56,244 bases of DNA from Vicinamibacteria bacterium (lineage in GTDB: Bacteria; Acidobacteriota; Vicinamibacteria; Fen-336), in NCBI GenBank assembly GCA_023701125.1, contig JAMPXO010000020.1, positions 1-56,244 of the forward strand, read 5' to 3'. The stretch's first letter is position 1. Each line of letters starts with the position of its first letter. Positions 44,139 through 55,685 of the stretch are shown here, one piece after another. Below the pieces are notes generated by a model. The model was not told the DNA's origin. It saw only the letters and a program-made list of their open reading frames with translations, and did not search any database. A program made the position numbers and the translations under genes.

Positions 44139-45212
44139 GTGATTTCGCGAGTGCAACGGGGCGTCGGGCTGCTGCTGTTCGCGGCGGTCAGCAGCGGGCC
44201 CGCGATCACTGTCGCCGGGACCGCGGAAGCCGGGATCGGGGCGCGCTACGAGTTCGTCCTGAACCTCTATGCCGAGGGCCGCCACGCCGAGGCCGTCGCC
44301 GCCCTGGCCGAGTTCCCGTGGAAAGAGCTGGACGACGGCTGGCAACTGCTCGAGTTGCGCATGCGAGCGCTCCGAAGCTGCCCGACGTGCCCGGACACCC
44401 TGCTCGACCGCCTGCCGCTGAAGGCGGCGGCGATGCTGCACTTCGACGTCGACGTCGCCCTGCGCCCGGCCAACGTCGTGATCGAGCAGCCCCCCACGTG
44501 CTCCGGACGCCACGCCCGCCGCGCCAGCCAGTTCGCGGAGCTGCTCGCGCTGCGGGTGGACGGCCGCGACTTCGCGCGCCGGTTCTACCTCGTGATGGCC
44601 CAGCGCGCGCAGTGGGACGCCTGCCTCGACGAGGCGATCGAGTGGTGGGGCCACGCCGGCCTGGAGCGCTTCCCGAACGACCCCGAGCTGCTGCTCACCG
44701 TGGGCGCGGCCCACGAGAAGTACGCGCGGCTCACCGATCGCAGCCCGACCCCGCACCTGCGCAACGCGCTGGGTCCCCTCGCCGCGGCGGTCCAGGCCGA
44801 TCCCGCCCTGCTTCAGGCCCGCCTCCACCTCGGCCGCGTGCAGTGGCGACTGGGCGAACTCGACGAGGCCCGGCGCACGCTGCAGAACGGGATCGCACAG
44901 GGCGGCGAAGCGGACGAGCGCTACCTCGCTCACCTGTTCCTCGGCCAGGTCCACGCCCAGGCGGGGCGAGCCGATGCCGCGGTCGAAGCGCTGCAGACCG
45001 CACTGGGCATCGACCCGGCAGGCCAGGCCGCCGCGGCCGCCCTGGCCCAGGTCCTGCTCCTGCGCGGGGACACGACGGCGGCACGCGCGGTGGTCGACCG
45101 CGCCCTGACCCGCCCCCGCGACCACTTCGACCCGCACTGGAACTACCTGTCGAGCAACGCGACCGACATCGACGATCGACTCGACGACCTGCGCGCGGAG
45201 TGCGGGCGTTGA
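44139..45212 (+). CDS. Secreted TPR protein with conserved cysteines (paralogue 1)
   Basis: 357 residues: N-terminal hydrophobic signal, a first helical repeat (AEGRHAEAVAALAEF), a Cys-bearing segment (C81 and C84 in CPTCPD, C121 in TCSGRHARRA, C162 in WDAC) and then TPRs to the C-terminus (RLHLGRVQWRLGELDEARRTL, ADAAVEALQTALGIDP). AAAMLHFDVD is shared with the two later paralogues. TPRs bind proteins, so it is probably an envelope scaffold; the cysteines may form disulfides or hold a metal. It ends in a TTGA overlap with a VWFA gene, and the TPR-VWFA order recurs at 47.4-50.4 kb. Not recognised as a named family. Confidence 0.78.
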   Translation: MISRVQRGVGLLLFAAVSSGPAITVAGTAEAGIGARYEFVLNLYAEGRHAEAVAALAEFPWKELDDGWQLLELRMRALRSCPTCPDTLLDRLPLKAAAMLHFDVDVALRPANVVIEQPPTCSGRHARRASQFAELLALRVDGRDFARRFYLVMAQRAQWDACLDEAIEWWGHAGLERFPNDPELLLTVGAAHEKYARLTDRSPTPHLRNALGPLAAAVQADPALLQARLHLGRVQWRLGELDEARRTLQNGIAQGGEADERYLAHLFLGQVHAQAGRADAAVEALQTALGIDPAGQAAAAALAQVLLLRGDTTAARAVVDRALTRPRDHFDPHWNYLSSNATDIDDRLDDLRAECGR

Positions 45213-46102
45213 GCCGGCCCCTCGCCCGCGTGACTGCCGCGGCCCTGGCCTGCGCCAGCCTCGCCGCCCTCGCCCAGGTGCCGGAGTTCCGGGTCGGCGT
45301 CGAGGCCGCCTACGTGGACGTCTTCGTCTCCCGCGGCGACGCGCCCGTCGTCGGCCTCGGCTCCGACGACTTCGAGTTGCGCGACGAGGGCGTCCCGCAG
45401 CCCGTCGCGGTCGTGGCCTCCGACGTGCTGCCGATCCAGGCCCTCTTCGTGTTCGACTCCAGCAGCAGCCTCACGAACGAGAAGCGCGCGGCCCTGCGCA
45501 GGGCGGGCGAGATCCTGCTCGCCGCGCTGCGCCCCGCGGACGAGGCCGGCCTGCTCGCCTTCTCCGCCGAGATCTTCTGGCTCGCGAAGCCGACCCGCGA
45601 CCGCGACGCCGTGCGGCGGGCGCTGGCCCGGATGGAGCCGATCGGCGCGACCTCGGTCTACGACGCGCTGCTGGCGGCGCTCGCGGTCGCCGACCCGCGC
45701 GGGCGCACGTTGATCATCCTGTTCACCGACGGCCGCGACAACACGAGCGCACTCGACGCGAGCCACCTGAAGGCCGTGGCCGAGCGCACCAGCGCCCTCG
45801 TCCATCTCGTCACGGTGCGCGATGCGCTGCCGCAGCCGGGGCGCCCGATCCGCGCACCCCTCGACCGCACAGCGCTCGACGACATCGCGGAAGCCACCGG
45901 CGGCCGGGTCTGGGTCGCCAACTCCGTGGCCACGCTCGGCGGCGCCTTCGAGCGCATCGCGGCCACGCTGGCCGCCCGCTACGTGCTGCGCTACGAGCCG
46001 CGCGGCGAGCCGAAGCCCGGCTGGCACCGGCTGGAGGTGAAGCTGCGCAAGGGGCGCGCCCAGGTCCACGCCCGCCGCGGTTACTGGGCCCCGGAGCACT
46101 GA
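45209..46102 (+). CDS. VWFA-related (acidobacterial-type) secreted protein
   Basis: 297 residues from TTG 45209. Signal peptide, then a short beta region VDVFVSRGDAPVVGLGSDDFELRDEG, as at the start of VWFA-related acidobacterial proteins. The A domain follows with a full MIDAS DSSSS (83-87), T in GATSVYD and FTDGRDN. It ends RRGYWAPEH. The domain should bind a protein ligand through a divalent metal in the periplasm or at the surface. Translationally coupled to the TPR gene. Confidence 0.85.
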   Translation: MSRPLARVTAAALACASLAALAQVPEFRVGVEAAYVDVFVSRGDAPVVGLGSDDFELRDEGVPQPVAVVASDVLPIQALFVFDSSSSLTNEKRAALRRAGEILLAALRPADEAGLLAFSAEIFWLAKPTRDRDAVRRALARMEPIGATSVYDALLAALAVADPRGRTLIILFTDGRDNTSALDASHLKAVAERTSALVHLVTVRDALPQPGRPIRAPLDRTALDDIAEATGGRVWVANSVATLGGAFERIAATLAARYVLRYEPRGEPKPGWHRLEVKLRKGRAQVHARRGYWAPEH

Positions 46103-46128
46103 GGATCCGGGATCGCAACAGGCTTGCG

Positions 46129-47322
46129 CTACCGGCAGGGCGAAGGGCCGCCCGGCGGCAACGCCTCGCCCAGGAGCGAGTCGAGCCAGGCGGCGTCCGA
46201 CAGCCCACGCGTCTTCCAGCCCGGGGCCAGCCTGTCCAGCATCGAGGCCTGCGCCATTCCGGAGTAGTAGAACCGCACGTCGCCGTCGGCGCGTCGGATC
46301 TGGGCCAGCTCCCGCGACCACTGCGCGAAGAAGGTCGAGTACCCCTGGAACGCGGGGTCGGCGGCGAGCGCCGCCAACGGACGGTAAGTTGGCGTCGTCG
46401 CGGCGGCGCGCCAGGCCTGCAGCTCGACGTACTTCGCCAGGCCCTCCAGCCACTCGCGCTGGCGCTCGTAGTCGACGAGGTCGGGGGACAGGCCCGTCGA
46501 CCGACGACGCTCGTGGCGCACCGCGAGAAAACGACGCGCCAGTGGCTCGGCCTCCTGGCACGACTCGGCCGCGGCCGCTTCGGCGAGCCACCGCAGTTCG
46601 TCCTTCCACAGGCCGCGCAGGGTGGCGTCGGGTGCCTCGTACACGCGTTCGAGCCTCGTGGCCCGCTCGGCGGCCTCCAGGCGAGCCGGTGCGGTGGCGG
46701 CCTGGTGCGCGTGGAACGCCTCGTGGAGCAACATCGAGATGTAGCCGTCCGTGCCGCCCAGGAACAGGTTCGTCGCGAGGCGGTAGGGGAAGATCGGCCG
46801 GAGCACCGACGGCAGGTCGCGGCGGAACTGCTCGGTCATCACGATCTGCATCCGCTCCAGGGTGGGAAGGCTGGACGCGTAGCGGCCGCCCACGCGAACG
46901 GTGAAGGCCTCGGGCGTGACGCCAGGTCCGGGCAGGCGCTGCCGGTGATAGGGGGCGCCCGCGAAGGTGTCGCCCGGCACGATCTCCCACGGGCCGCCGA
47001 CGATCTGCTCTCCGGGGATCTTCACCCAGCCGGGCGCCGGGTCGGCCTCGCCGAGGATGAACGCGAAAGCTTCGTTGTAGACGACGACGGGGTTGCGCGC
47101 CGAGCCCCAGCCGGGCCAGATGCTGTCGCCGAGTGCCGCCCTCAGGTGCAACGCCTCGGCGAGCCGTGCCTGCTCGGCCGCGGGAAGTCGTTCGGTGACG
47201 GCCGATCGGGTCGGCAGGCCCCGGTTGTTCAGTGCTGAGGCGCCGGCCAGGGCCAGCACGGCGAGGATCAGGACCGCGACCAGGATCCCGAGGGCCCTCA
47301 TCACCCGCCGTTGCCTCGCCAG
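46129..47322 (-). CDS. HExxH zinc metallopeptidase-like membrane/secreted protein, possible CTG start
   Basis: 397 residues if started at CTG 47322 (GGAGGAG six bases upstream), or 390 from ATG 47301, which has no nearby ribosome-binding site. An N-terminal signal or anchor (about 12-30) precedes the main domain; the zinc motif is LLHEAFHAHQ (HEAFH) and a candidate third ligand is E in EGLAKYVELQAW. The layout fits a gluzincin-like peptidase of unknown family. It is inserted, on the opposite strand, between two TPR/VWFA modules, so it may process their products; inferred. Confidence 0.65.
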   Translation of the reverse strand: MARQRRVMRALGILVAVLILAVLALAGASALNNRGLPTRSAVTERLPAAEQARLAEALHLRAALGDSIWPGWGSARNPVVVYNEAFAFILGEADPAPGWVKIPGEQIVGGPWEIVPGDTFAGAPYHRQRLPGPGVTPEAFTVRVGGRYASSLPTLERMQIVMTEQFRRDLPSVLRPIFPYRLATNLFLGGTDGYISMLLHEAFHAHQAATAPARLEAAERATRLERVYEAPDATLRGLWKDELRWLAEAAAAESCQEAEPLARRFLAVRHERRRSTGLSPDLVDYERQREWLEGLAKYVELQAWRAAATTPTYRPLAALAADPAFQGYSTFFAQWSRELAQIRRADGDVRFYYSGMAQASMLDRLAPGWKTRGLSDAAWLDSLLGEALPPGGPSPCR

Positions 47323-47421
47323 GGCTCGCTCCTCCGCTGGGAGTGTAGGTGAAGCAAGAGCAGTGCGCACCGGAATCGCGGCGTTCGCCCGAGCGTAGGA
47401 TCCGCCACAGGAGCGAGTGGA

Positions 47422-48486
47422 ATGCCACCAGCGACGGGGCGGGCGTTCGCGCTGCTGCTCTTGTGCGCCGTCTGCGCTCCGGCGGTGCCGGCGCAGCAGG
47501 CGCAGAGAGACGAGCGGCTCGTCCGCTACGAGAGCGTCCTCCTCGCGTACGCGGGAGGGGACCGGGACGAGGCGCTGCAGCGCCTCGGGGAGATGTCCTG
47601 GCAGACGCTCGACGCCGCGTGGGCGTTGCTCCTGTCCCAGGTGAAGAACGTCGCCACCTGCCCGAACTGCGCCGACCCGGTCTCGCGCCTGCCGCTGCCG
47701 GCCGCGGCAATGCTGCACCTCGACCGCGACCGGCTCGACAACCCGCGCCAGTTCGACGTCGAGCAGCGCCCGCGATGCCCGGGACGCCAGGCGCAACGCG
47801 CTCTCCAGGTCGCCGACCTGCTCGCCACGCGTCCGGAGACGCGCGAGTTCGCGCGGCGCCTCTTCCTCGGCGCGGCGCAGCGCGCACAGTGGGACGCCTG
47901 CATGGAAGAGGCCGTGGCGACGGGCCGCGCCGGCCTCGCCCTCTTCCCCGACGACGCGGACCTGCTGCTGGCCGTCGGCGCGTCGTACGAGAAGTGGGCG
48001 CGGCTCGTGGACGTGCGCACCGCCTCGCTGCTCGGGGACGCGGCCCGCCACCTCGAGCGAGCGCTCGCGGCGGACCCGGGGAGAGCGACGACGCGCGTCC
48101 ACCTCGGCCGCGTGCTGTGGCGGCAGGGGCGTTTCGAGGACGCCCGTGCGACGTTCGAGGCCGCCGTCACCCCGGGAGCCGACGCGGGTGCGCTCTATCT
48201 CGCCCACACGTTTCTCGGTCACCTCCACCACCGCGCGGGCCGATCGGAGGCTGCGGTCGAGTGCTTCCACCGCGCGTTGGCGATCGCCCCGCTGGGTCAG
48301 GCCGCGGCGCTCGGCCTCGCCCACGCCCTGCGCCTCCGGGGCGACACGACCGGCGCGGGACAGTCTGCGGACCAGGTGCTCGCGGCTCGCGACAAGCCGC
48401 TCGACCCGCTCGTGAACTACCTCGCCGACAACGCCGCCGGCGCCGAGGATCTGCTCGACGAGTTGCGCGAGGGGACGCGACGATGA
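47422..48486 (+). CDS. Secreted TPR protein with conserved cysteines (paralogue 2)
   Basis: 354 residues; signal peptide ending VPAQQ. Homologous to the 44.1-kb protein along its whole length: CPNCADP for CPTCPDT, AAAMLHLDRDRLDNP, RCPGRQAQRA for TCSGRHARRA, WDAC, then TPRs (RVHLGRVLWRQGRFEDARATFEAAV). All four cysteines are kept. ATG 47422 has AGGAG 10 nt upstream and TAGGAT at 47396-47401 as a possible -10. It overlaps paralogue 3 by 4 nt (ATGA). Confidence 0.78.
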   Translation: MPPATGRAFALLLLCAVCAPAVPAQQAQRDERLVRYESVLLAYAGGDRDEALQRLGEMSWQTLDAAWALLLSQVKNVATCPNCADPVSRLPLPAAAMLHLDRDRLDNPRQFDVEQRPRCPGRQAQRALQVADLLATRPETREFARRLFLGAAQRAQWDACMEEAVATGRAGLALFPDDADLLLAVGASYEKWARLVDVRTASLLGDAARHLERALAADPGRATTRVHLGRVLWRQGRFEDARATFEAAVTPGADAGALYLAHTFLGHLHHRAGRSEAAVECFHRALAIAPLGQAAALGLAHALRLRGDTTGAGQSADQVLAARDKPLDPLVNYLADNAAGAEDLLDELREGTRR

Positions 48487-49520
48487 TGCGGCTGGTGTGG
48501 GTGGCCGTGCTGGCCCTCGCCTCCGCTCGCGCAGCGCAGGTCGACGACGGTCCCGCCCGTTACCTGGGCGCGCTGCGGGCGTACGCGTCCGGCGAGCGCG
48601 AGGCCGCCGTCGCCCGCGTCGGCCCCCTGGCCTGGGAGGAGATGGACGCGGCTTTCGGCCGCTTCCGGAGCGAGGTGAACCGCGCCGGCCGCTGCCGGAC
48701 CTGCCCCGACACGCTGGCGAACGAGCCGATCCGGGCGGCGGCGATGCTGCACCTCGACCGCGATCTGGTCGAGAACCCGCCGCACCAGGACGTCGAACAG
48801 CCCCCGCCCTGCGGCGGCCGCCACGCGCGCCGCGCCCTCGAGTACGCGGAACTGCTGGCGCTGCGCGAGCGCACCCGCGAGTTCGCCCGCCGCTTCTACG
48901 TCGCGATGACCTGGCGCGCCGAGTGGGACGCCTGCCTGTTCCAGGCGGTGGGCTGGGCGCGGACGGGCCTGGTCGCCTTCCCGGACGACCCCGACCTGCT
49001 GCTTGCCCTCGGCGTGACGCACGAGAAGGCCGCCCGGCTCGGCGGCAAGGACCCGGGGCGCCTGCTGCGCGAGGCACGCCGTCATCTCGCGCGGGTGGTC
49101 GCGGTCGACCCCGGGCGCCTCTCGGCGCGCGTGCACCTCGGTCGCGTGTTGTGGCGCCTGGGCCAGCTCGACGAGGCCCGGCGCACGCTGGAGGCCGCGG
49201 TCGAGGTGGGTGGCGGAGGAGAGGGGTTGTATCTCGCCCACGTCTTCCTCGGTCATGTACACGGCCGCGCCGGCCGTCCCGCGGCGGCAGCCGACGCCTT
49301 CCGGCGCGCGCTCGCGATCGCTGCGGACGGCCCGGTCGCGACGATCGGGCTCGCCCACGCGTTGCGGCAGCAGGGCGACCTCGACGGCGCGGCTCGGATC
49401 GTCGATCGTGCGCTGGGCAGCGAGACGGCCCGGTTCGATCCCTATCGCGACTACAACGCCGACAACGCCCGGGACGTCGCGCGCCTGTTCGACGCGCTGC
49501 GCGAGGAGGCCCGACAGTGA
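48483..49520 (+). CDS. Secreted TPR protein with conserved cysteines (paralogue 3)
   Basis: 345 residues with a short signal peptide. CRTCPDT, AAAMLHLDRDLVENP, PCGGRHARRALEYAELLALR and WDAC keep the four family cysteines, followed by RVHLGRVLWRLGQLDEARRTLEAAV-type TPRs. Resembles paralogue 1 (ARRTL, FARRFY). Its GTGA overlap with the next VWFA gene repeats the arrangement of module 1, so the second module arose by duplication of the TPR gene within a TPR-VWFA unit, or the first by loss. Confidence 0.78.
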   Translation: MMRLVWVAVLALASARAAQVDDGPARYLGALRAYASGEREAAVARVGPLAWEEMDAAFGRFRSEVNRAGRCRTCPDTLANEPIRAAAMLHLDRDLVENPPHQDVEQPPPCGGRHARRALEYAELLALRERTREFARRFYVAMTWRAEWDACLFQAVGWARTGLVAFPDDPDLLLALGVTHEKAARLGGKDPGRLLREARRHLARVVAVDPGRLSARVHLGRVLWRLGQLDEARRTLEAAVEVGGGGEGLYLAHVFLGHVHGRAGRPAAAADAFRRALAIAADGPVATIGLAHALRQQGDLDGAARIVDRALGSETARFDPYRDYNADNARDVARLFDALREEARQ

Positions 49521-50419
49521 GACTCGCCCCTGCTCTTCTCGCTGCGGCGCTCGTCGCCGGCGGTGCGAGCCTCGCCTTCGCTCAGGCCGTGCCGCAGTTC
49601 AGCTCGGACGTGGGCGTCGCCTACGTCGACGTCTTCGTCTCGGACCACGAGCGCCCCGTGCCAGGCCTGCACGGGCACGACTTCGAGCTGCGCGACGACG
49701 GCGTGCCGCAGCGGGTCGAGCTGGCCGAGATCGACGCGATGCCGGTCCAGGTGCTGCTCGTGTTCGACAGCAGCAACAGCCTGACGGGCGAGAAGCGGGC
49801 GGCCCTGCGCGTCGCCGGCGACCTGCTGCTGGCCGCGCTGCGGCCGGTCGACGAGGTCGGCGTGATCGCCTTTTCGGACGACATCCGCTGGCTGGCCCGA
49901 CCGACCCTGGACCGCCGCGCGGTGCACGAGGCGATCGCGTCGCTGCAACCGGTCGGAGCGACGGCCGTGTACGACGCGCTGGCGGCAGCGCTCGCGGTCG
50001 CCGACCCGCGCGGCCGCACGCTGGTCATCCTGTTCACCGACGAGGTGGACAACTCGAGCCTGCTCGACGCCACCGACCTGCGCGCCGCCGCCGTGCGCTC
50101 CAGCGCCCTCGTCCACCTCGTCACGGTTCGCAGGCGCGGGCCGTTCGTCCCCAACACCCGGGTGCAGCCCGACTCGCACCCGCTGCAGGAGATCGCGGAG
50201 CTGACCGGCGGCCGGGCCTGGATCGCGGACTCGGTCGCGAACCTGACGGCGGCGTTCACCCGTATCGCCGCGACCTTCGCGACGCGCTACGTATTGCGCT
50301 ACGAGCCGGCCGGCGAGCCGACACCGGGCTGGCACCGCCTCGAGGTCAAACTGAGGAAGGGCAAGGCGAAGGTCCAGGCCCGCCGCGGCTACTGGGTCCC
50401 CGACCCGGCGGTCCGCTGA
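49517..50419 (+). CDS. VWFA-related (acidobacterial-type) secreted protein, paralogue
   Basis: 300 residues, GTG start. Same plan as the 45.2-kb protein: signal peptide, VDVFVSDHERPVPGLHGHDFELRDDG, MIDAS DSSNS (84-88), GATAVYDALAAALAVADPRGRTLVILFTDEVDN, ending RRGYWVPDPAVR. The DPRGRTL-ILFTD block is nearly identical in both copies, so duplication is fairly recent. Probably a partner of the co-translated TPR proteins. A 6-bp hairpin (50446-50463) follows, without a T-run. Confidence 0.85.
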   Translation: MRLAPALLAAALVAGGASLAFAQAVPQFSSDVGVAYVDVFVSDHERPVPGLHGHDFELRDDGVPQRVELAEIDAMPVQVLLVFDSSNSLTGEKRAALRVAGDLLLAALRPVDEVGVIAFSDDIRWLARPTLDRRAVHEAIASLQPVGATAVYDALAAALAVADPRGRTLVILFTDEVDNSSLLDATDLRAAAVRSSALVHLVTVRRRGPFVPNTRVQPDSHPLQEIAELTGGRAWIADSVANLTAAFTRIAATFATRYVLRYEPAGEPTPGWHRLEVKLRKGKAKVQARRGYWVPDPAVR

Positions 50420-51680: not shown

Positions 51681-53831
51681 ATGCCGGTGCTGGCGGGCGC
51701 GGAACTCGGCCACTACGCGCTGGTCGAGAAGATCGGCGAAGGCGGGATGGGCGTCGTCTGGCGCGCCCGCGACCTCAAGCTGGACCGCGAGGTGGCGCTC
51801 AAGGTGCTGCCCGAGGCGCGCACTTCCGATCCCGACTGGCTGGCGCGGCTGGAGCAGGAAGCTCGCGCGGCCGCCGCGCTGAGCCACCCCAACGCCGTCG
51901 CGGTTCATGCGATCGAAGAAGCCGAGGGCGTGCGCTTCCTGGTGTTCGAGCTGGTCCACGGCCGCAGCCTCGCCGAGTTGATCCCGCCCACCGGCCTGCC
52001 GCTCCCGCAGATCGTCGGCCTCGGCGCCGGCATCGCCGGGGCGCTCGCCGCGGCCCACCGCCGCGGCCTCACCCACCGCGACCTGAAGCCGCGCAACGTG
52101 ATGGTCGACGAGGGCGGTGCGGCGCGAGTGCTCGACTTCGGGCTCGCCGCCTTCCTGCCGCCGGCGGCGCCCGAGGCCTCGCCCGACTCGCCCACCCGCC
52201 CCTACCCGCCGCTGCCGGGCGGCGGCACGCTCTGCTACATGGCGCCCGAGCAGTTGCGCGGCGCCCCGCCGGACCCCAGCGCCGACGTGTGGAGCCTGGG
52301 CGTGCTGCTGTTCGAGATGGCGTGCGGCAAGCCGCCGTTCCGCGGCGCGACGCCCGCAGACCTCGTCTCCGCGGTGCTGCTCGCGGAACCCGAGCCACTC
52401 GCCCGCAGTCGCCCTGACCTGCCGCCGGAGCTGGCCGCGATCGTCTCCACCTGCCTGCGCAAGGACCCCGCGCGCCGCCTGCTGACCGCCGACGACGTGC
52501 GGCTGGCGTTGTTGCGGCTGCCCGCGAGCGAGACCCGCGAGCGCAAGGTCGCGGTGCTTCCCTTCGTCGACATGAGCCGCGAGCACGACCAGGGCTGGCT
52601 GTGCGACGGCCTGGCCGAGGAGATCCTGCTCACGCTGCGCGGCGTGCCGGGACTGCGCGTCGTGTCGCGCGCCGCGGCGTTCTCCGCCCGCGCCGCCGCG
52701 GGTCCCACGCCGGACCTCGGCGAACTGGGCCGCAAGCTCGGCGCGTCGGTGCTGCTCGACGGCAGCGTGCGCCAGGCCGACGGCAAGGTGCGGGTGGCGG
52801 TCGAGCTGATCGACGTCGACGACGGCGCGCAGCTCTGGGCCTTCCGCCACGAGGGCGCGCTCGGTGACGTGTTCGCGCTGCAGGACCAGATCGCGCGCCA
52901 GGTCGCCGCCGCGCTGGAGGTGCAGTTCGGCCACGCCGCGAGCGCCCCCGCGGGCACCACCCAGTTGCGGGCGTGGGAGCTCTACCACCGCGCCCGGCGC
53001 CTGTACTACCGCTACAGCCGCCGCGCCGTCGAAGAAGCCCGCACGCTGTTCGAGCGCGCACTCGGCGAGGACCCGGCGTTCGCCCGGGCGTGGGCCGGGC
53101 TCGCCGACTGCGGCTTCTTCCTGTACCTCTACGTGCACCGCGACCCGGAGGCGCTGCACCTCGCGCGCGAGGCCAGCCGCCGCGCGCTGGAGTTGCAGCC
53201 CGCACTGGCCGAGGCCCACGCCTCGCGCGGCATGGGCCTCTCGCTCGACGGCCGCCACACCGAGGCCGAGCGCGCCTTCGAGGAGGCCGTGCGCCTCGAC
53301 CCCGATCTGTTCGAGGCCCGCTACTTCCGGGCCCGCGACGCCTTCGCGCAGGGCCGGCTGACCGACGCCGCGCGCGAGTGGGAGGCGGCCGGGCGGGCGC
53401 GGCCCGAGGACTTCCAGTCGCCGCTGCTGGTGGCCCAGGTCTACGACGCGCTCGCGCAGCCCGAGGCCGCGGCCGCCGCCCGCCGCCGCGGCGTGGTGCT
53501 GGCCGAGGCCCAGGCGGCGCGCGAGCCGGACGACACCCGCGCCCTCTACATGGCGGCCAACGGCCTGGTCGCGCTGGGCGAGCGCGAGCGTGGCCTGGCG
53601 CTGTCCGATCGTGCGCTGGCGCTGGAGCCCGACGACCCGATGCTGCTCTACAACGTCGGCTGCATCCTGGCGCTGGCCGCCGAGCCGGAGCGCGCGATCG
53701 ACTGCCTCGTCCGCGCCGTCGCCGGCGGCCTGCGCCAGCGCGGCTGGCTCGAGCACGACTCCAACCTCGATTCGCTGCGCGCGAGCCCGCGCTTCCAGGC
53801 GCTCGTCGGAGCGATCCCCGCCGAGGCATGA
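51681..53831 (+). CDS. Soluble Ser/Thr protein kinase with TolB-like and TPR regions
   Basis: 716 residues. The kinase domain spans about 12-270: glycine loop GEGGMG (19-24), K41 in VALK, HRDLKPRN (H132-N139, D134 catalytic), DFGLA and APEQ. Then ERKVAVLPFVDMSREHDQGWLCDGLAEEI (about 290-430), a FlgO/TolB-N-like nucleotide/peptide-binding module common in such kinases, followed by about eight TPRs. No TM helix is seen, so it is cytosolic. Kinases of this plan are common in Acidobacteriota. ATG has GGAGG upstream. It precedes two secreted VWFA genes; a shared process is possible but not shown. Confidence 0.9.
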   Translation: MPVLAGAELGHYALVEKIGEGGMGVVWRARDLKLDREVALKVLPEARTSDPDWLARLEQEARAAAALSHPNAVAVHAIEEAEGVRFLVFELVHGRSLAELIPPTGLPLPQIVGLGAGIAGALAAAHRRGLTHRDLKPRNVMVDEGGAARVLDFGLAAFLPPAAPEASPDSPTRPYPPLPGGGTLCYMAPEQLRGAPPDPSADVWSLGVLLFEMACGKPPFRGATPADLVSAVLLAEPEPLARSRPDLPPELAAIVSTCLRKDPARRLLTADDVRLALLRLPASETRERKVAVLPFVDMSREHDQGWLCDGLAEEILLTLRGVPGLRVVSRAAAFSARAAAGPTPDLGELGRKLGASVLLDGSVRQADGKVRVAVELIDVDDGAQLWAFRHEGALGDVFALQDQIARQVAAALEVQFGHAASAPAGTTQLRAWELYHRARRLYYRYSRRAVEEARTLFERALGEDPAFARAWAGLADCGFFLYLYVHRDPEALHLAREASRRALELQPALAEAHASRGMGLSLDGRHTEAERAFEEAVRLDPDLFEARYFRARDAFAQGRLTDAAREWEAAGRARPEDFQSPLLVAQVYDALAQPEAAAAARRRGVVLAEAQAAREPDDTRALYMAANGLVALGERERGLALSDRALALEPDDPMLLYNVGCILALAAEPERAIDCLVRAVAGGLRQRGWLEHDSNLDSLRASPRFQALVGAIPAEA

Positions 53832-53865
53832 TCGGCGTGCGGGGCCTTCAATAGGGGGATCCAAC

Positions 53866-54792
53866 ATGCTGCACGTCGCCGTCGCCGCGCTGCTGCTGTT
53901 CCAGGGCGTCGAACCACGGACCCTCTCGCTGTGGGCCACCGACCCCGAGACCGGCGCACCCGCCGAGGGGCTGACCGCCGCCGAGGTCGCGATCCTCGAG
54001 GACGGCCGCGTCGTCGAGGGGCTCGTCGTCCGCCGCGACGACCGGCCGCTGGTGGTGGCCCTGGTGCTCGACTCCAGCGAGTCGATCGCCGACAAGTGGC
54101 GCACGGAGTTGCAGGTCGCCGCGATCGAGTTCGTGCGCGGCCTGCCCGACGGCGCGAAGGTCGGGGTGTGGACGACGGGCGACCGCGCGCGGCGCGTCGT
54201 CGAGTTCTCCGTCGACCGCGACAAGATCGTCAAGGCGATCGAGAAGACCTTCCCGCTGGGCGCCAACTCGATGCTCGACGGGCTGGTCGAGGCCGCGAAG
54301 GAGCTGCGCAAGCAGCCCGGCGACCGCAGCGCGCTGGTGGCGGTGTCGGGCGCCGGCTTCGGCTTCTCGGATTACACGAAGGACCTGGCCCGCGACCGCG
54401 TGCAGGCCAACGCCATGGTCACCTTCGGCGTGCTGTTCGACGAGGGCCTCGCTGCCGGCGCCCTCGGCGGTCGCACCTTCACCCCCGGGGCCCGCGGCGA
54501 GCTGCCGGCCGGTCGCGCCGACTCCGACAACTTCTCCCGCGTCGGCCGCGGCGAGCACGAGTACGTGATGATCCAGGGCGCGCGGCGCAGCGGCGGCCTG
54601 TTCCAGGCGATCCCCTCCTCGCAGGGCGTCAAGGACGCGCTGGCGAAGGTCAACGTCGCGCTGCGCAGCCAGTACCTGCTCTCGTACAAGTCGCTGCCCA
54701 ACCCCCACGAGCGCCGCACCGAGGTGCGCACGGCGCGGCCGCTGACGGTGCGCCTCGGCCCCTCCAGCGTCGAAGAGCCGGGCGGCCGTTGA
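53866..54792 (+). CDS. Secreted VWFA-like protein (tandem paralogue 1)
   Basis: 308 residues with a short signal peptide, an N-terminal beta region (ATDPETGAPAEGLTAAEVAILEDGRVVEGL) and a VWA-like domain with complete MIDAS DSSES (69-73). The core includes VGVWTTGDRARRVVEFS and AKELRKQPGDRSALVAVSGAGFGFS. A loop of about 20 residues (LAAGALGGRTFTPGARGEL) is absent from the next paralogue. It ends VEEPGGR. AGGGGG lies about 8 nt before the ATG. Only 34 bp after the kinase gene. Confidence 0.83.
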   Translation: MLHVAVAALLLFQGVEPRTLSLWATDPETGAPAEGLTAAEVAILEDGRVVEGLVVRRDDRPLVVALVLDSSESIADKWRTELQVAAIEFVRGLPDGAKVGVWTTGDRARRVVEFSVDRDKIVKAIEKTFPLGANSMLDGLVEAAKELRKQPGDRSALVAVSGAGFGFSDYTKDLARDRVQANAMVTFGVLFDEGLAAGALGGRTFTPGARGELPAGRADSDNFSRVGRGEHEYVMIQGARRSGGLFQAIPSSQGVKDALAKVNVALRSQYLLSYKSLPNPHERRTEVRTARPLTVRLGPSSVEEPGGR

Positions 54793-54806
54793 GCGCTCAC
54801 GCGATC

Positions 54807-54812
54807 TAGAAT
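54807..54812 (+). promoter_or_regulatory. -10-like TAGAAT, 6 nt before ATG
   Basis: TAGAAT-N6-ATG (54819) in the 26-bp gap between the two VWFA-like genes, so the second copy has its own probable leaderless promoter. Confidence 0.45.
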
Positions 54813-54818
54813 CGGACC

Positions 54819-55685
54819 ATGTTCCATCTCGCCGCCGCTGCCCTGCTGCTCCTGTCGGGGGTCGAACAACGCACGCTGTCGCTGTGGGCCAACGACCCGC
54901 AGACCGGCGCTGCCGCCGAGGGCCTGACCGGCGCCGACGTCGCGGTGCTCGAGGACGGCACCGTGATGGAGGGCCTGCAGGTCGAGCGCGACCCGCGCGT
55001 GTTGACCGTGGCCCTCGTGCTCGACTCCAGCGAGGGCATGAGCTCGGCGTGGCGGCTGCACGTGCAGAGCGCGGTCGTCGCTTTCGTGCGCAAGCTGCCC
55101 GCGGAGGCCCGGGTCGCCGTGTGGACGACGGGCGATCGCGCGCGGCGGGCCGCAGAGTTCGGCACGGACCGCGAGAAGACGCTGCAGACGATCGAGAAGA
55201 CGATGCCGTTCGGCACCAACAACCTGCTCGACGGCCTGGCCGAGGCCGCCAAGGAGCTGCGCAAGCAGCCCGGCGACCGCAGCGTGCTGGTCGCGATCTC
55301 CGGCGCCGGCTTCGGCTACAGCCAGTTCTCGAAGGAGATGGTGCGCGAGCGGCTGTCCGCCGACGTGATGGCGGTGTTCGGCCTGCTGTTCGACGAGGGA
55401 GCGGGCGGGCGCTCCATGGACGGCTACTCGCTGGTCGGCCGCGGCGACCACGAGTTCGTGCTGAATCAGGCGGCGCGCCGCAGCGGCGGCCTGTTCCAGT
55501 CGCTGCCGACCGCCCAGGGCACCGCCGACGCGCTGGCGAAATTCGAGGTCGCGCTGCGCAGCCAGTACCTGCTCCGCTACAAGACCCAGCCCAACCCGCG
55601 CCAGCGCCGGACCGAGGTCAAGACCCGGATGCCGCTGACGGTCCGCCTCGGCCCCGCCTCGGTGGAAGAACCCGGCGGCCGCTGA
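54819..55685 (+). CDS. Secreted VWFA-like protein (tandem paralogue 2)
   Basis: 288 residues, close paralogue of the preceding gene: the same LAKFEVALRSQYLLRYKTQPNPRQRRTEV end and VEEPGGR terminus. The MIDAS reads DSSEG (69-73), with the last metal-binding serine replaced by glycine, so metal-dependent ligand binding may be lost or changed. The extra loop of copy 1 is missing. Divergence of one copy after duplication is likely. Confidence 0.83.
   Translation: MFHLAAAALLLLSGVEQRTLSLWANDPQTGAAAEGLTGADVAVLEDGTVMEGLQVERDPRVLTVALVLDSSEGMSSAWRLHVQSAVVAFVRKLPAEARVAVWTTGDRARRAAEFGTDREKTLQTIEKTMPFGTNNLLDGLAEAAKELRKQPGDRSVLVAISGAGFGYSQFSKEMVRERLSADVMAVFGLLFDEGAGGRSMDGYSLVGRGDHEFVLNQAARRSGGLFQSLPTAQGTADALAKFEVALRSQYLLRYKTQPNPRQRRTEVKTRMPLTVRLGPASVEEPGGR

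Follow-up and report, generated by a model that had tools for sequence, protein, structure and literature searches.

Translationally coupled TPR-VWFA gene pairs in Vicinamibacteria and the envelope complex they are likely to encode

Two TPR-VWFA units at one locus

The window, by which we mean the whole 56,244-nucleotide stretch analysed here, comes from an acidobacterial genome of 5.4 Mb and contains two units, TPR1-VWFA1 (44139-46102) and TPR2-TPR3-VWFA2 (47422-50419), separated by a gene on the opposite strand. The five genes of the two units are:

44139-45212, + strand: TPR1, predicted exported four-cysteine TPR protein, 357 aa; GTG start; cysteines C81, C84, C121 and C162
45209-46102, + strand: VWFA1, predicted exported acidobact_VWFA protein, 297 aa; TTG start on the TPR1 stop (TTGA); 121 bits against TIGR03436; MIDAS residues kept
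47422-48486, + strand: TPR2, predicted exported four-cysteine TPR protein, 354 aa
48483-49520, + strand: TPR3, predicted exported four-cysteine TPR protein, 345 aa; ATGA overlap with TPR2
49517-50419, + strand: VWFA2, predicted exported acidobact_VWFA protein, 300 aa; GTG start on the TPR3 stop (GTGA); 128.8 bits against TIGR03436; model shows a VWA domain flanked by beta strands

All three junctions are four-base stop/start overlaps (TTGA at 45209, ATGA at 48483-48486, GTGA at 49517), and both units end in a coupled VWFA gene, as a sequence-only reading of this DNA had proposed. The same reading described the three TPR proteins as paralogues sharing CxxC, C-x-GR, WDAC and AAAMLHxDxD motifs, and these can be read in each of them (CPTC, CPNC or CRTC; CSGR, CPGR or CGGR; WDAC; AAAMLHFDVD or AAAMLHLDRD); by BLASTP, TPR1 and TPR2 are 47% identical (E 8e-88) and TPR2 and TPR3 51% (E 3e-94), while VWFA1 and VWFA2 are 65% identical. 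Judged by hydropathy only, all five proteins open with a hydrophobic, signal-like N-terminus, in agreement with the earlier view that all are exported.

The gene between the units (46129-47301, - strand) encodes 390 residues, hydrophobic at the N-terminus and carrying an HEAFH motif, presumably of the HExxH type, followed by EGLAKYVE; its product, which has no match in Pfam or NCBIfam at E 0.1, resembles a zinc metallopeptidase, either exported or anchored. Further downstream, within 51681-55685, a gene (51681-53831, + strand) that looks by eye like a Ser/Thr protein kinase ending in TPR-like sequence is followed by two tandem VWFA-like genes (the second at 54819-55685, + strand) that score 53.4 and 43.0 bits against TIGR03436, under its cut-off.

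In Pfam and NCBIfam the three TPR proteins match general TPR models alone, and their scores of 53.7, 41.6 and 60.1 bits against Pfam TPR_19 (cut-off 25) mark them as tandem TPR proteins. VWFA1 and VWFA2 align over nearly the entire TIGR03436 model and, with scores well beyond its cut-off of 81.25 bits, are members of that family. The earlier description of the TPR family as undescribed thus stands as regards these libraries, which contain general TPR models only; the VWFA proteins belong to a named family, though one whose model description mentions no TPR partner.

Predicted structures agree with these assignments. The TPR1 model (six-row alignment; pLDDT 83.8, pTM 0.81) is helical throughout, with no strands, and a fold search with it returns general TPR arrays: the C-terminal TPR half superposes on the scaffolds MamA (3vty_A; Z 16.9, rmsd 1.8 over 172 residues) and PilF (2fi7_A; Z 16.2, rmsd 3.0 over 179 residues), matches that reflect general TPR similarity and leave the cysteine and AAAMLHxDxD region outside. 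Likewise, when the TPR profile was run against sequences of solved structures, the 60 matches listed were all general TPR proteins, in each of which the best stretch starts at profile position 159 or later, so that the cysteine region up to C121 is uncovered. The VWFA2 model (pLDDT 78.7) contains a VWA domain with beta strands on both sides, and its top structural matches are VWA domains, including 4fx5 (Z 21.8, 176 residues), ITIH1 (6fpy_A; Z 20.1, with 201 residues aligned across model positions 46-289 at rmsd 3.8) and BatB of Bacteroides (3ibs; Z 19.1, rmsd 2.4, 167 residues). The MIDAS residues of VWFA2 (D84, S86, S88, T149 and D175) are invariant (5/5), and because a complete MIDAS is also found in 56 of 59 partner VWFAs from the wider set described below, these proteins are likely to bind their ligands in a metal-dependent manner.

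Pairing, overlap and co-divergence across the class

Of 193 genomes of class Vicinamibacteria, 49 contain matches (E <= 1e-15) to a profile built from five TPR proteins; relatives that carry names come from Acidobacteria bacterium ACD2, one Vicinamibacteria MAG and one Vicinamibacterales MAG. We scanned 70 stretches (69 representing every listed match outside the window, plus one fusion from the source genome) with a TPR profile and with a home-made VWFA profile from 15 seeds, scoring pairing and overlap on stop-to-stop frames rather than called genes. A VWFA lies within 400 bp downstream on the same strand for 67 of 80 TPR ORFs, at a median of 14 bp to the profile match. Among the 13 others are three first genes of TPR-TPR-VWFA sets, four with less than 1 kb of downstream sequence, two generic TPR ORFs (L149, and L084 on the plus strand) and one fusion with no further VWFA (L131), leaving three true exceptions (L127, L130, L146) in which more than 2.8 kb of downstream sequence holds no VWFA. 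The TPR-TPR-VWFA order of the window recurs at three loci (L092, L113, L145). TPR genes therefore usually have a VWFA neighbour, as the sequence-only reading expected a profile search to reveal, and those lacking one are not the rule.

The overlap is nearly as regular as the pairing. An NTGA at the TPR stop is the nearest start in the VWFA frame in 57 of the 67 pairs, and the VWFA occupies the frame of such an overlap in 63. A hydrophobic segment stands at the N-terminus of 54 of 58 VWFAs when these are translated from the NTGA start; the figure for internal segments is 8%, and so this start is probably the real one.

Beyond the class, a wider profile (22 rows) run at E <= 1e-20 over a 396-genome sample of the phylum matched 25 genomes, five of them outside Vicinamibacteria and all of one family. 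A downstream VWFA is present at 24 of the 29 loci scanned (two of these lie inside the window), with two more (L157, L180) ending too early to judge and three (L160, L161, L170) having none downstream, although L170 has one upstream; outside the class the count is three of five decidable loci. L160 and L161, from another family of the phylum, are long TPR-rich ORFs whose open frames span 1309 and 819 aa, with no VWFA within 1.5 kb.

The source genome itself holds 12 weaker TPR loci, two of which are a fusion on contig C15 and a pair on contig C222; the other ten, which are generic, have no VWFA in their flanks (0/10; up to 1.5 kb a side), and one of them is unmatched even by the wider TPR profile. 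The genome's 25 VWFA-family matches divide into three that follow a TPR gene, one that is fused and 21 with no partner in the flanks scanned. Taken with the pairing of 67 of 80 TPR ORFs, this means that the VWFA is often partnerless and the TPR protein seldom so. The coupled TPR-VWFA gene pair is thus real and widespread, a module of Vicinamibacteria (Acidobacteriota) that has no name in the libraries searched.

The two families also diverge together. Among 59 complete pairs (excluding those with a VWFA under 220 or a TPR under 250 residues) the distance matrix of the TPR proteins correlates with that of the VWFAs at r = 0.76, and re-pairing within the 13 genomes that hold more than one pair gave lower values in all 5000 shuffles (mean 0.566, maximum 0.736, 0/5000 reaching the observed r), which excludes the species tree as the cause. 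Linkage, or the joint duplication of neighbouring genes, could still lie behind part of this co-divergence. There are also natural fusions, nine ORFs in which a TPR part follows VWFA in a single frame; the one on C15 of the source genome (L030/L151) is at least 905 aa long, its ORF being cut by the contig end.

The pairing, the NTGA overlaps, the excess of r over its shuffled mean and the fusions all support the earlier suggestion of a TPR-VWFA envelope complex, and we consider it most likely that the two proteins are partners at the cell envelope. The same pattern might arise if they were merely co-expressed, that is, if they served one envelope pathway and were made together with no mutual binding: overlapping codons speak for co-translation at most, and linkage can yield co-divergence when both genes duplicate together. 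We regard this as unlikely, since fusions within one ORF fit a binary complex better, as do the near-fixed overlap and the lack of a recurrent third gene, no gene family appearing at the loci (70 stretches and part of the window) in more than four of 49 genomes. The larger third-gene clusters were mostly frames antisense to VWFA or TPR, and these were masked before counting.

Cysteines as a local elaboration of the TPR protein

The sequence-only reading took the four cysteines as the hallmark of the TPR family, and in this it does not hold. In a 76-row tree from a quick search (omitting sequences shorter than 300 residues and three others, two from L149 and one from L084, judged to be generic TPR proteins), the cysteine-bearing proteins form one clade of 15 rows with SH-aLRT support of 99. 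Across the wider family many rows keep an A-A-x-L-H-x-D/E motif with no cysteines, and most relatives retain the VWFA partner. The cysteines are thus not conserved in wider homologues; we reject the notion that four cysteines define the family, and the cysteine-bearing proteins are instead a local elaboration of the TPR-VWFA complex. Of the two outcomes that the sequence-only reading had named as refuting it, non-conservation of the cysteines in homologues is observed, and TPR genes mostly lacking a VWFA gene is not.

Cysteines were scored in a careful alignment of 22 rows. Thirteen of the 15 clade members have all four, one of them (L087) with CxxxC in place of CxxC, and the other two (L088, L151) have the third and fourth only, CxxC being missing as a unit; these two-cysteine rows, which include the TPR part of the C15 fusion, are nested among four-cysteine rows with weaker support (88). 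In TPR3 and the ACD2 relative P0004 the four conserved cysteines are the only ones, while TPR1 and TPR2 have further cysteines besides. In the TPR1 model the conserved residues fall in three inter-helix loops, with CxxC in 80-93, C121 in 109-123 and C162 at 160-162, and by the usual TPR topology CxxC would lie on the opposite edge of the array from C121 and C162.

The complex had been thought perhaps metal- or disulfide-dependent, and of these the second is favoured: two disulfides appear likelier than a four-cysteine metal site because CxxC is missing as a unit in two rows, because the proteins look exported and because the cysteines make an even set. A single zinc or iron-sulfur site, rendering the complex metal- or redox-dependent, would account for the joint presence of all four cysteines in 13 of 15 clade members and would replace the disulfide step alone. 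We hold it to be rather improbable, however, given that L088 and L151 have C3 and C4 with no CxxC, that L087 has altered spacing, that the cysteines occupy three different loops of the model, and that apparent export would place them where disulfides form. Two other candidates were rejected: heme c attachment (CxxCH), as no histidine follows CxxC in any row of the careful alignment, and a thioredoxin-like CxxC redox protein, given the all-helical TPR1 model and the CxxxC of L087.

A candidate two-protein envelope complex and its meaning

We favour, with somewhat better than even confidence, a reading in which the proteins of each unit are exported and function as obligate partners, the TPR protein as scaffold and the VWA protein as metal-dependent binder, translationally coupled and joined in an envelope complex. 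The TPR superhelix would serve as the scaffold on which the short VWA protein, with beta strands at both termini flanking an intact MIDAS, would dock, and the VWA protein would bind a ligand via a divalent metal. Coupling through NTGA would provide the two at a fixed stoichiometry, allowing joint assembly outside the cytoplasm, presumably in the periplasm, and the TPR-TPR-VWFA unit would be the same complex with its scaffold duplicated. In the window's clade, disulfides C81-C84 and C121-C162 (TPR1 numbering) may staple the N-terminal repeats. Overall, what the sequence-only reading observed is confirmed and its interpretation is supported in part, with the complex itself likely.

TPR proteins are frequently co-chaperones, and the TPR protein could instead act in the periplasm as a chaperone or assembly factor dedicated to the VWFA and be absent from the final complex. 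The TPR-then-VWFA order of nearly all pairs would suit such a role; the fusions, which hold both in one chain, would not, and we think there is little chance that it is correct.

A partnership of VWA and TPR proteins is itself of a known kind. BatB and BatC are a VWA protein with MIDAS and a TPR protein, sometimes fused, for which a complex is proposed (PMC3557215, PMC5700661); they are fused in Leptospira biflexa (PMC3557215), and BatB is among the structural matches of the VWFA2 model. The TPR-VWFA pair resembles BatB/BatC in this partnership, but does not look like a Bat operon. Of eight MoxR-family matches in the genome none is on the contigs that carry the module (C132, C222), the loci have no recurrent third gene, and the window VWFA resembles a signal-peptide protein rather than a multi-span membrane protein. 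Bat operon membership is thus largely refuted, and it is very unlikely that the module is a MoxR-VWA-TPR system of the Bat type acting in stress or aerotolerance. A force-transducer cluster of TPR, TolQ/TolR-like motor and vWA proteins, as proposed in PVC bacteria, shares a TPR gene upstream of the vWA gene (PMC12204202), yet it merits next to no credence and was rejected, as neither the three TolQ/ExbB-type (MotA/ExbB) nor the four TolR/ExbD-type matches in the genome are on C132 or C222, and as the VWFAs start directly after the signal-like stretch, with no long linker or tether. Since the module contigs lack MoxR, MotA/ExbB and ExbD genes and the loci share no recurrent third gene, we describe the module as a self-contained pair.

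In the open-licence literature, as covered by titles, abstract openings and some passages, we found no description of TPR-VWFA pairing and no explanation of TIGR03436 or of VWFA-related Acidobacterial proteins; in one paper (PMC3174227), von Willebrand type A was met with only in two table entries for Solibacter paralogues. TIGR03436 is numerous in the source genome, and a fixed partner offers a handle on the role of some of its members. In its nearly invariant four-base overlap the module also offers a clear natural example of conserved translational coupling between two genes, and the cysteine clade provides a ready test case for disulfide stapling of an extracytoplasmic TPR array. More tentatively, and as a proposal we ourselves find doubtful, the pairs could be binary envelope receptors that together form a large acidobacterial class not described before, in which paralogous pairs within one cell would be non-interchangeable and would recognise different ligands; each genome would then field several TPR-VWA pairs of cognate specificity.
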